Assembly: GCF_002866025.1 (NCBI RefSeq)
Contig: NZ_LNDE01000001.1
Location: forward strand, 372,001 to 436,000
DNA length: 64,000 nt
Origin: Thermotoga sp. KOL6
GTDB taxonomy: Bacteria; Thermotogota; Thermotogae; Thermotogales; Thermotogaceae
Direction: 5' to 3'
A program made the position numbers and the translations under genes. Of this stretch, positions 41,852-45,041 are shown one piece after another. Every line of letters starts with the position of its first letter. Positions within the stretch are counted from its first letter, which is position 1. The notes below the pieces were generated by a model. It was not told the origin of the DNA, searched no databases, and was given only the letters and a program-made list of their open reading frames with translations.

Positions 41852-42883
41852 TTGAAAAACTTACTCGACTTCTCTTACGAAGAGCTGGTCAACGAAATCA
41901 CACGTCTAGGTTTAGAACGATATAGGGTAGATCAAATTTTGGATTGGGTATACGACAAAAAAGTGAACGATTTCGATGAGATGACGAACTTATCCAAGAA
42001 ACATCGTGCGTTGTTGAAAGAGTACTTCGCTATTTCTTTTCTAAAACTCCTAGATAAGAGGGTATCCAAAATAGATGGTACCACTAAGTTCCTCTGGGAA
42101 CTCGAAGATGGAAACACTATAGAATCTGTCATGCTTTTTCACCCCGACAGGATAACAGCCTGCATATCAACACAAGTCGGTTGTCCGGTGGGTTGTGTGT
42201 TCTGTGCCACCGGTATGAGTGGTTTTGTTCGGAATCTCTCGACAGGAGAAATTGTAGCTCAGATTTTATCCATGGAGAAAGAAGAGAGGAAGAAAATTGG
42301 GAATGTTGTCTACATGGGAATGGGAGAACCACTGTTGAATTACGAAAATACGGTAAAAAGTATAAGGATACTCAATCATAAAAAGATGGGTAACATAGGG
42401 ATTAGAAGGATAACTGTTTCTACCGTCGGTATTCCGGAGAAGATCGTCCAGCTAGCCGAGGAAGACCTCGATGTGAAACTCGCCCTTTCTTTACATGCAC
42501 CAACAAATTTCAAGAGAGATCAGCTTGTACCGTTGAACAGAAAATATTCGATCGAAGAAATCTTGAACGCTTTGAAAATTTATCAGAGAAAAACGGGGAA
42601 GAGAGTGACTATAGAGTACGTACTTATAAGAGGAGTGAACGATGAGATCAGCGACGCCAAGAAGCTTGCTGAAATCCTCAAGAATTTGAAGGTGTTTGTG
42701 AATCTAATACCTGTGAATCCGACCACGGAGACTATGAAGAAACCTTCAAGACAGAGGTTACTAGCCTTTAAAAGGATACTCCTCGAAAACGGTATAGAAG
42801 CCGAGATTAGGAAAGAAAAGGGTAGCGATATTGAGGCCGCTTGCGGACAACTGAGAATAAAAAGAAAATTTTCAATGCCATGA
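41852..42883 (+). CDS. rlmN: RlmN, 23S rRNA (A2503-C2)/tRNA (A37-C2) methyltransferase
   Basis: Radical-SAM methyltransferase acting at the peptidyl-transferase centre. 343 residues from TTG 41852 with GGGAGGTG upstream. The Fe-S cysteines are in CVFCATGMSG, preceded by STQVGCPVG. GMGEPLLNYENT, SLHAPT and the C-terminal AACGQLR, whose cysteine is the transient methyl-adduct residue, are present. First of four genes whose order matches the Bacillus rlmN-prpC-prkC-rsgA-rpe locus apart from the missing phosphatase and kinase. Confidence 0.96.
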   Translation: MKNLLDFSYEELVNEITRLGLERYRVDQILDWVYDKKVNDFDEMTNLSKKHRALLKEYFAISFLKLLDKRVSKIDGTTKFLWELEDGNTIESVMLFHPDRITACISTQVGCPVGCVFCATGMSGFVRNLSTGEIVAQILSMEKEERKKIGNVVYMGMGEPLLNYENTVKSIRILNHKKMGNIGIRRITVSTVGIPEKIVQLAEEDLDVKLALSLHAPTNFKRDQLVPLNRKYSIEEILNALKIYQRKTGKRVTIEYVLIRGVNDEISDAKKLAEILKNLKVFVNLIPVNPTTETMKKPSRQRLLAFKRILLENGIEAEIRKEKGSDIEAACGQLRIKRKFSMP

Positions 42884-43494
42884 AGACCTTCTTTGGAATA
42901 GTAATAGGATTCGTAGCGGGAGGGTTATTTTTTCTTTTTGTAATCAAACTCTATCAAGATCAATTCGTAACAGTTCCCGATGTTACGGGGCTTTCTGGAA
43001 CCGAAGCTTGTGAAAAGTTGAAAGAATTTGGTTTGATATGTGATAAGGTTGCTTCTGGTACTGTTATTGACACGTACCCTCATCCGGGATCCAAAGTAAA
43101 AAAAGGAAGAACCGTGAATCTATATTATGAAAATCCTTTGAAAAGAATCATTCCACATCTTTCGGGCATAAAACTTTCGGTAGCGGAAGAAATTTTGAAG
43201 AAATCAGGTTGGAAATACGAAATAATATATTTTCCATTCGGCGAAGAAGAGAGCAAAGTGCTCGCAATTTATCCGACGGAAGGAATTCCTCACAATGGAA
43301 CCATTACCCTTTTGGTGGACACTGGAAAAAAGGACACGTATTTCTTTGTTCAGAACTACGTCGGGATGAAGTTTGAGGAGTTAAAAACGGAGGATCGCTT
43401 CATCTTTATTGGAAGAGGAAGTCGTGTTGTGGGGCAGTATCCTCCTCCAAATTCTATAGCAAAAGAAGTAATTTTGATACTCGGGGAGGAGTAA
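42880..43494 (+). CDS. Membrane-anchored PASTA-domain protein without kinase domain
   Basis: ATG 42880 overlaps the rlmN stop (ATGA) and gives a 204-residue protein: a short cytosolic start, one membrane span (FFGIVIGFVAGGLFFLFVIK, 4-23) and an outside part with two clear PASTA units (VTVPDVTGLSGTEACEKLKE; IIPHLSGIKLSVAEEILKKS) and a degenerate third (FVQNYVGMKFEELKT). PASTA domains bind peptidoglycan fragments and normally end PrkC-type Ser/Thr kinases. Here no kinase precedes the membrane span. It lies between rlmN and rsgA exactly where prpC-prkC lie in Firmicutes. Confidence 0.88.
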   Translation: MKTFFGIVIGFVAGGLFFLFVIKLYQDQFVTVPDVTGLSGTEACEKLKEFGLICDKVASGTVIDTYPHPGSKVKKGRTVNLYYENPLKRIIPHLSGIKLSVAEEILKKSGWKYEIIYFPFGEEESKVLAIYPTEGIPHNGTITLLVDTGKKDTYFFVQNYVGMKFEELKTEDRFIFIGRGSRVVGQYPPPNSIAKEVILILGEE

Positions 43495-43497
43495 AGC

Positions 43498-44379
43498 TTG
43501 CGTAGAACAGGTGTAGTGGTGAGCTTCCATTCCAATATGGTGACAGTTGAAGACGAAAAGACGGGGGAAAGACTCCTCTGTAAATTGAGAGGAAAATTTC
43601 GTTTACAGAATCTGAAGATCTACGTTGGTGATAGAGTGGAATACACACCGGATGGTACGGGATCCGGTGTAATAGAAAATGTGTTCCACAGAAAGAATTT
43701 ACTCGACAAACCTCATGTTGCAAACGTGGATCAGGTAATCTTGGTTGTCACGGTGAAAATGCCTGAAACTCCAACCTACATAATCGATAAATTTTTGGTA
43801 CTCGCTGAAAAAAACAGTTTGGACACGATCATTGTCATTAACAAAATGGACCTTTACGATTCCGAAGATCTCAAAAAAGTAGAAGAGCTGTATAAAGTCT
43901 ATTCAATCCTCTACCCAATTGTGAAAACCAGCGCAAGAACAGGATTGGGCATTGACGAGCTAAAGGGATATTTGAAAGGGAAAATAAGCACAATGGCCGG
44001 CCTTTCAGGTGTGGGGAAGAGTAGCTTGCTCAATGCGATCAATCCTGGGTTGAAACTTAGAGTGAGTGATGTTTCACAGAAGCTGAAGAGAGGTCGACAC
44101 ACTACAACCTCTGCCCAGCTTCTCAAATTTGATTTCGGTGGATATGTAGTCGATACTCCAGGCTTTGCAAACTTGGAAATAAGCGACATACCAGCAAATG
44201 AATTGAAGTACTATTTCAAAGAGTTTGAAAGCAGGCAGTGTTTCTTTTCTGACTGTAATCATGTGGATGAACCAGGCTGTGGAGTAAAAGAAGCCATGGA
44301 AACAGGAGAAATAGCAAGGAGTCGTTACGAAAATTACGTAAAAATGTTTTACGAGATTCTAGGGAGGGGGAAGAAGTAA
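43498..44379 (+). CDS. rsgA: Ribosome small-subunit-dependent GTPase RsgA
   Basis: Circularly permuted GTPase that checks maturation of the 30S subunit. 293 residues from TTG 43498. N-terminal OB fold (RRTGVVVSFHSNMVTVE), then permuted GTPase motifs in the order NKMD, TSARTGLG, GLSGVGKSSLLN and DTPGF, and a C-terminal zinc knuckle (CFFSDCNHVDEPGC). Matches T. maritima YjeQ of known structure. The rpe start overlaps its final base. Confidence 0.96.
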   Translation: MRRTGVVVSFHSNMVTVEDEKTGERLLCKLRGKFRLQNLKIYVGDRVEYTPDGTGSGVIENVFHRKNLLDKPHVANVDQVILVVTVKMPETPTYIIDKFLVLAEKNSLDTIIVINKMDLYDSEDLKKVEELYKVYSILYPIVKTSARTGLGIDELKGYLKGKISTMAGLSGVGKSSLLNAINPGLKLRVSDVSQKLKRGRHTTTSAQLLKFDFGGYVVDTPGFANLEISDIPANELKYYFKEFESRQCFFSDCNHVDEPGCGVKEAMETGEIARSRYENYVKMFYEILGRGKK

Positions 44380-45041
44380 TGATAAAGGTAGCCGCCTCTA
44401 TTCTTGCTTGCGATCTTGCAAGACTCGCAGATGAAGTCAAAAGGGTAGAAAAACACGTGGACATGATACATTTCGATGTCATGGACGGACACTTCGTTCC
44501 CAATATCTCCTTCGGTCTCCCCGTTCTTAAAGCTTTAAGAAAGGAAACCAAACTACCGATAAGTGTACATCTAATGATCACAAATCCAGAAGATTATGTT
44601 GATCGTTTTATTGAAGAAGGATCAGACATCATAGCTGTTCATTACGAAACAGCACCGCATCTTCACAGATTGGTTCACAAAATAAGAGACATGGGGGCAC
44701 AAGCTTTTGTTGCCATCAATCCACACACGCCTGTTTTCCTTTTATCTGATATCATAATGGATATCGATGGAGTGCTCGTAATGAGTGTCAATCCTGGATT
44801 TTCCGGCCAGAGATTCATAGCGAGGAGCCTAGAAAAGATAAGGAATCTACGCAAAATGGTGAAAGAACTAGGTTTAGAGACAGAGATAATGGTCGATGGT
44901 GGTGTAAACGAAGAAAACGCTTCTATACTCATAAAGAACGGGGCCACTATTCTTGTTATGGGATACGGAATTTTCAAAAATGAAAATTACGTGGAATTGG
45001 TGAGATCCATTAAACAGGAAAGAGGGGAATTTGCTGATTAA
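44379..45041 (+). CDS. rpe: Ribulose-phosphate 3-epimerase
   Basis: TIM-barrel enzyme interconverting ribulose-5-phosphate and xylulose-5-phosphate in the pentose phosphate pathway. 220 residues with VAASILACDLARLADEV, the metal-ligand HFDVMDGHFVPNISFG, SVHLMI, MSVNPGFSGQRF and VDGGVNEENA. Ends the rlmN operon and overlaps the last 32 bases of convergent mutS. Confidence 0.97.
   Translation: MIKVAASILACDLARLADEVKRVEKHVDMIHFDVMDGHFVPNISFGLPVLKALRKETKLPISVHLMITNPEDYVDRFIEEGSDIIAVHYETAPHLHRLVHKIRDMGAQAFVAINPHTPVFLLSDIIMDIDGVLVMSVNPGFSGQRFIARSLEKIRNLRKMVKELGLETEIMVDGGVNEENASILIKNGATILVMGYGIFKNENYVELVRSIKQERGEFAD

Follow-up and report, generated by a model that had tools for sequence, protein, structure and literature searches.

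In the analysed window, i.e., the whole stretch of 64,000 nucleotides from Thermotoga sp. KOL6, an open reading frame starting with ATG (42880..43494, +) encodes a stand-alone membrane-anchored PASTA protein of 204 aa (Pfam PASTA, E = 1.7e-26). It is preceded by rlmN (41852..42883, +; TIGR00048, 8.3e-120) and followed by rsgA, also named cpgA, yloQ or engC (43498..44379, +; PF03193, 6.2e-55), and rpe (44379..45041, +; TIGR01163, 1.2e-87), with the RlmN, RsgA and Rpe neighbours identified by equivalog models. As the rlmN stop and the start of the PASTA gene overlap by 4 nt (ATGA), the end of the latter is separated from the rsgA start by 3 nt, and base 44379, the last one of rsgA, is common to rsgA and rpe, the four genes look like a single transcription unit. 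Further downstream, rpe (+) and mutS (-) are convergent, their 3' ends overlapping by 32 nt (window 45010-45041). Open reading frames and profile searches agree with the preliminary description, according to which rlmN, rsgA and rpe are arranged as in Bacillus, with the membrane span plus PASTA part of PrkC between them.

In the AlphaFold2 model, the protein starts with a single N-terminal membrane helix (residues 2-26; 42883..42957, +), a hydrophobic segment with Gly conserved in the family. This helix is followed by PASTA repeat 1 in a short form (residues 30-84; 42967..43131, +), with a pLDDT of 84-96 over most of the domain, by repeat 2 (residues 88-149; 43141..43326, +) and by a third repeat with a weak first half (residues about 154-202; 43339..43485, +). 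When scored singly with the Thermotogota PASTA profile, repeats 1 and 2 gave values of 2.8e-25 and 1e-23, respectively, whereas repeat 3 reached 1.7e-5 over its C-terminal half (profile positions 33-64 only), so that the description of this unit as degenerate holds. Likewise, the assignment of the repeats to PASTA is borne out by the Pfam model (PF03793), which matches in three stretches at 92.4 bits, above its gathering cut-off of 23.2. On the other hand, the NCBIfam Stk1/PknB model NF033483 scores far under its cut-off (55.8 versus 450 bits), with a match confined to the membrane and PASTA part (model positions 342-516 of 563). The single-sequence AlphaFold2 model has a pLDDT of 72 and the helix and strand order of PASTA, i.e., a helix plus three strands, and all 25 of the 25 best PDB matches found with this model by Foldseek are PASTA structures, albeit at a modest best E-value of 1.5e-3. 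Support for the PASTA fold is strong for repeat 1 and modest for repeats 2 and 3. A Hanks kinase domain is not present in the 204-aa frame, nor does Pfam report a transpeptidase domain in the protein. A search of the C termini of Thermotogota members gave no Ig-like domain; compared to the plan of three PASTA repeats plus Ig-like domain in the PrkC ectodomain, the protein has two clear repeats and a degenerate third one. Provided that the ATG is the start, the cytoplasmic tail would be essentially nil. The conserved start MRTTENK upstream of this ATG was not taken to indicate a longer tail, as its conservation is explicable as a by-product of the reading frame of the RlmN C terminus. The protein also triggers the PD-T4-6 models of PADLOC at 2.2e-8. 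As these matches lie in the C-terminal part of the model and look like PASTA cross-hits, the protein was not regarded as a defence gene; PASTA-only proteins in general may be liable to such miscalling.

The 204 codons are collinear in four relatives of the genus at identities of 62-70%, and there are no indels in the PASTA gene among the genus members compared. Within the genus, pN values of 0.19-0.23, about two to three times those of the neighbour genes, compare with pS values of 0.73-0.84. From the collinear codons, a pN below pS and a position conserved across five families of the phylum, it follows that the frame is not a chance one. The gene is real, conserved and under purifying selection, which also rules out pseudogene decay.

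Searches with Pkinase (PF00069) and PP2C_2 (PF13672) gave no match in the genome (1.71 Mb, 99.9% complete), while control genomes gave matches. Thus, PF00069 did not reveal a stand-alone Hanks kinase elsewhere in the genome, and a PP2C phosphatase partner gene is not present at the locus. For T. maritima, the discussion of a survey from 2005 says that no Ser/Thr kinase was identified, its table being less clear (PMC1262709). The only other PASTA match of the genome is a protein of the transpeptidase type with C-terminal PASTA and SxxK- and KTG-like motifs, which, judging from its sequence, is a penicillin-binding protein (PBP).

Across Thermotogota, 99 of 103 genomes have a PASTA match, but several families have such matches solely in frames about 600 aa long, which are probably PBPs. 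Comparison of the loci revealed the kinase-less order rlmN-PASTA-rsgA in five families (f1, there in the own genus and one other, f2, f3, f10 and f11) and the order PASTA-rsgA-rpe in f6. In other genera of f1, the PASTA gene is located elsewhere (L006, L020, L025, L031). Families f8 and f9 possess an intact yugP-rsmB-rlmN-rsgA-rpe cluster without PASTA gene, in f5 rsgA comes directly after rlmN, and in f7 rsgA-rpe stand without PASTA gene. A PASTA kinase does not occupy the slot at any Thermotogota locus examined; Hanks kinases were detected in 27 of the 103 genomes, mainly from f9. At five loci of f3 (L004, L008, L011, L016, L029), two PASTA repeats are followed by a long low-complexity tail with a conserved QGGQF end.

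For the same slot outside the phylum, 287 further genomes of the same domain were sampled, the first 151 of which (G103-G253) all belong to different families, apparently with a single genome for each higher group, the taxonomic spread being judged from family codes. Loci from genomes with PASTA matches were fetched around these matches and around rpe and then annotated; in two cases (L127, L142), our own PASTA profile missed a PASTA that Pfam reports. At least 51 of the 151 distant genomes (48 from the first pass plus G170, G200 and G217 from coordinates) encode a kinase-less membrane-anchored PASTA protein just upstream of rpe, with rsgA intervening before rpe in some, whereas only 5 of the 151 have a PASTA kinase in this position. 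The consensus order is fmt-rsmB-(rlmN)-PASTA-(rsgA)-rpe, and in many cases fmt, yugP, rsmB or rlmN is found upstream of the PASTA gene. A PASTA-only gene followed by rsgA-rpe, as in Thermotoga, is present in Fusobacterium (L243), its relative (L190) and three further loci (L147, L199, L228), and rlmN adjoins the PASTA-only gene at L102, L159 and L211. Kinase plus PP2C in the Bacillus order are encoded at L173 and L205, the former showing yugP-rsmB-rlmN-X-rsgA-rpe with the PP2C-kinase pair as X. Two tandem PASTA-only genes lie between rsmB and rpe at L108 and L115 (f140), while at L224 (G208) rlmN-rsgA-rpe is found without any PASTA gene, like in Thermotogota f8 and f9. At L227 (3718-4953, G220), rlmN and a PASTA-only gene are followed by a separate tail-anchored Pkinase-like gene and rpe; the HRD and DFG motifs of this Pkinase-like protein look lost, as in a pseudokinase, and the arrangement could be a split or an intermediate state.

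From the fetched outgroup loci, 86 kinase-less proteins were compared. Their most hydrophobic segment precedes the repeats and is strong in 85 of the 86, with a median of 12.5 residues on its N-terminal side and about 10 residues from the segment to the first repeat. Usually, there are three repeats at near-constant spacing, and slot kinases with three repeats share this spacing. In many of the 86, the C terminus is formed by a domain of about 75 residues. When profiled from kinase-less proteins only, this Ig-like domain matches PASTA kinases at their C termini (down to 4.9e-20) and, weakly, Bacillus subtilis PrkC (6.8e-4); in the PrkC sequence used, Arg500 falls at the published number. Moreover, when 28 kinase-less proteins were profiled over their whole length, the profile matched the Staphylococcus aureus PrkC ectodomain 3PY9 at 1.4e-45 over 282 residues (chain 8-289), thus spanning all three PASTA repeats and the Ig-like domain, the latter described from this ectodomain structure (PMC3601408). 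In line with such an end-to-end match including the Ig-like domain, the kinase-less slot proteins and the PrkC ectodomain are one family, of which the Thermotoga protein, with the Ig-like domain not found in Thermotogota members, is a reduced version. With kinase-less occupants in at least 51 genomes versus kinases in 5, and with the match over the whole length of the PrkC ectodomain, the locus is a slot for a PASTA protein, the kinase being optional. Consequently, the placement of a kinase-less PASTA protein in the position of prpC-prkC stands with regard to slot and composition, but as an oddity of Thermotoga it does not, given the numbers elsewhere. A wide distribution of PASTA-only proteins at unrelated loci, which according to the preliminary description would refute it, is found only in part: the proteins are very widespread, but mostly at the same locus.

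Concerning the order of events, the ectodomain tree is weakly resolved and unrooted. At face value, 10 changes of the kinase state are needed, but well-supported branches force only one, and a tree in which the 13 kinases are held together has a higher likelihood and is not rejected (p-AU 0.725), so that the tree does not demonstrate multiple origins of PASTA kinases. In a tree of RlmN, RsgA and Rpe, the positions of the kinase-bearing lineages are not supported. The ectodomain tree would be compatible with kinase and ectodomain having been joined just once, and the frequency of the kinase-less form moderately favours gain as the direction. Tentatively, and at somewhat less than even odds, we propose that the slot was originally occupied by a kinase-free PASTA protein, membrane-anchored and wall-binding, which had a core function in the envelope across many bacterial phyla, and that PrkC/PknB arose by the joining of a Hanks kinase, perhaps once. 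Since the ectodomain trees are unrooted, the direction is not readable from them, and they are equally blind to the reverse scenario, in which a Thermotogota ancestor with PP2C-PrkC in the slot lost both catalytic domains and kept an ectodomain that is now shrinking. The gene order yugP-rsmB-rlmN-X-rsgA-rpe, identical to that of the PP2C-kinase version at L173, would fit this loss, as would the signs of reduction within the phylum (a shortened third repeat, the missing Ig domain and the lack of the gene in f7-f9). We nevertheless regard it as rather unlikely, because the slot contains a PASTA kinase at none of the Thermotogota loci examined, because kinase-less forms outnumber the kinase in the slot about tenfold across the sampled lineages, so that losses would need to be very common, and because kinases forming one clade, which is not rejected, fit a single fusion. 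Of the two histories offered in the preliminary description, an ancestral sensor that later gained a kinase is therefore compatible with the data and slightly favoured, whereas for a lost kinase with the sensor kept, a slot kinase is lacking at the Thermotogota loci examined.

With respect to function, some slot proteins appear to have no membrane helix as anchor but, as read from sequence, a lipoprotein-like signal (L112 and L119, f24) or a signal peptide (L199, f47), and 14 of the 61 genomes with slot-type kinase-less PASTA proteins have no Pkinase match at 1e-5. Together with the tail of only a few residues, these forms and genomes indicate that the shared job of the slot proteins lies outside the membrane and most likely consists in the binding of peptidoglycan. 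Accordingly, with a probability of roughly 0.6, we consider the Thermotoga protein to be a kinase-free member of the PrkC ectodomain family whose site of action would be extracytoplasmic. Behind the membrane anchor, the PASTA repeats would project into the periplasm and there bind peptidoglycan or its precursors. The protein could thereby serve as an anchor or adaptor, keeping itself at sites of wall growth, perhaps together with partners like the PASTA-bearing PBP, and presumably without any catalysis of its own in the cytoplasm. Some lineages have a Hanks kinase attached to this ectodomain at the same position, by which the wall-binding protein would have become a receptor kinase of the PrkC type. 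For PrkC/PknB, binding of muropeptides by the PASTA domains has been established, but not for every such domain: in B. subtilis PrkC, only one of the three binds, through Arg500 (PMC3601408). By eye, the matching positions in the 204-aa protein are Pro, Pro and Gln, without any Arg. As T. maritima MurE incorporates D-lysine (PMC3829189), PrkC and the Thermotoga protein may have different ligand specificities. Some PASTA-only proteins from outgroup loci (L106, L113, L120, L121, L141, L160 and others) have Asp or Asn inside the membrane helix and, after it, a Met-Pro exit motif (for example, FDQILMPWYT); this was not seen in Thermotogota.

Instead of a wall ligand, the PASTA repeats might directly contact the PASTA-bearing PBP or the divisome, making the protein an adaptor. 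The PBP found as the only other PASTA match of the genome would suit such a role, and since PASTA binds a ligand only with the right site (PMC3601408), many of these domains may be structural. However, families of the phylum without slot protein still show PASTA matches, located in frames about 600 aa long that are probably PBPs, arguing against a mutual dependence and making an adaptor improbable. Least probable is a transmembrane receptor, in which wall fragments bound by the PASTA array would cause the helix to signal to a separate partner in the cytoplasm or membrane (another kinase, a histidine kinase or a transporter): the single helix with conserved glycines in Thermotogota, the close coupling to rsgA, whose product is a PrkC substrate in B. 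subtilis (PMC6449344), and the arrangement at L227, with a degenerate kinase encoded separately right after the PASTA gene, would fit, but a Hanks kinase is found neither in the own genome nor in 14 of the 61 genomes with slot proteins, the cytoplasmic tail has few residues here and a median of 12.5 in the family, and lipoprotein and signal-peptide forms occupy the same slot. In lineages with the latter forms, where the membrane anchor is apparently replaced, a transmembrane relay would not be available. Hence, the earlier suggestion that the protein binds wall fragments and passes a signal in another way is weakened in its relay part, while wall binding stays the preferred reading.

Research on PASTA kinases has treated them as wall sensors in Gram-positive bacteria. 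Should their ectodomain indeed be a much wider protein that keeps its slot even without any Hanks kinase, wall binding and not signalling would be its basic job, one could test how a major bacterial receptor kinase arose, and a conserved, uncharacterised envelope protein beside rsgA and rpe would be pointed to. In the openly accessible literature, with subscription papers mostly outside reach, no paper was found on the conserved slot or on the relation of PASTA-only proteins to the whole PrkC ectodomain. The type of protein is already annotated in databases, where 'PASTA domain-containing protein' (COG2815) is the label given to short membrane proteins with PASTA repeats.

Among known systems, PASTA-bearing PBPs such as SpoVD, PBP2x and the one of the own genome likewise have PASTA outside the membrane, but the 204-aa protein is without transpeptidase domain and its PASTA repeats make up the entire ectodomain. 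The PrkC/Stk1/PknB kinases (NF033483) share, in their Bacillota members, the slot rlmN-X-rsgA-rpe and have a single membrane helix followed by PASTA repeats. In contrast to these, the Thermotoga protein has neither kinase domain nor PP2C partner, its repeats are shortened, and no Ig-like domain was found among Thermotogota. B. subtilis has prpC-prkC-cpgA(rsgA) as one operon that is conserved across Firmicutes, with RsgA as a substrate of PrkC (PMC6449344), whereas in Thermotoga rsgA is retained beside a kinase-free partner.
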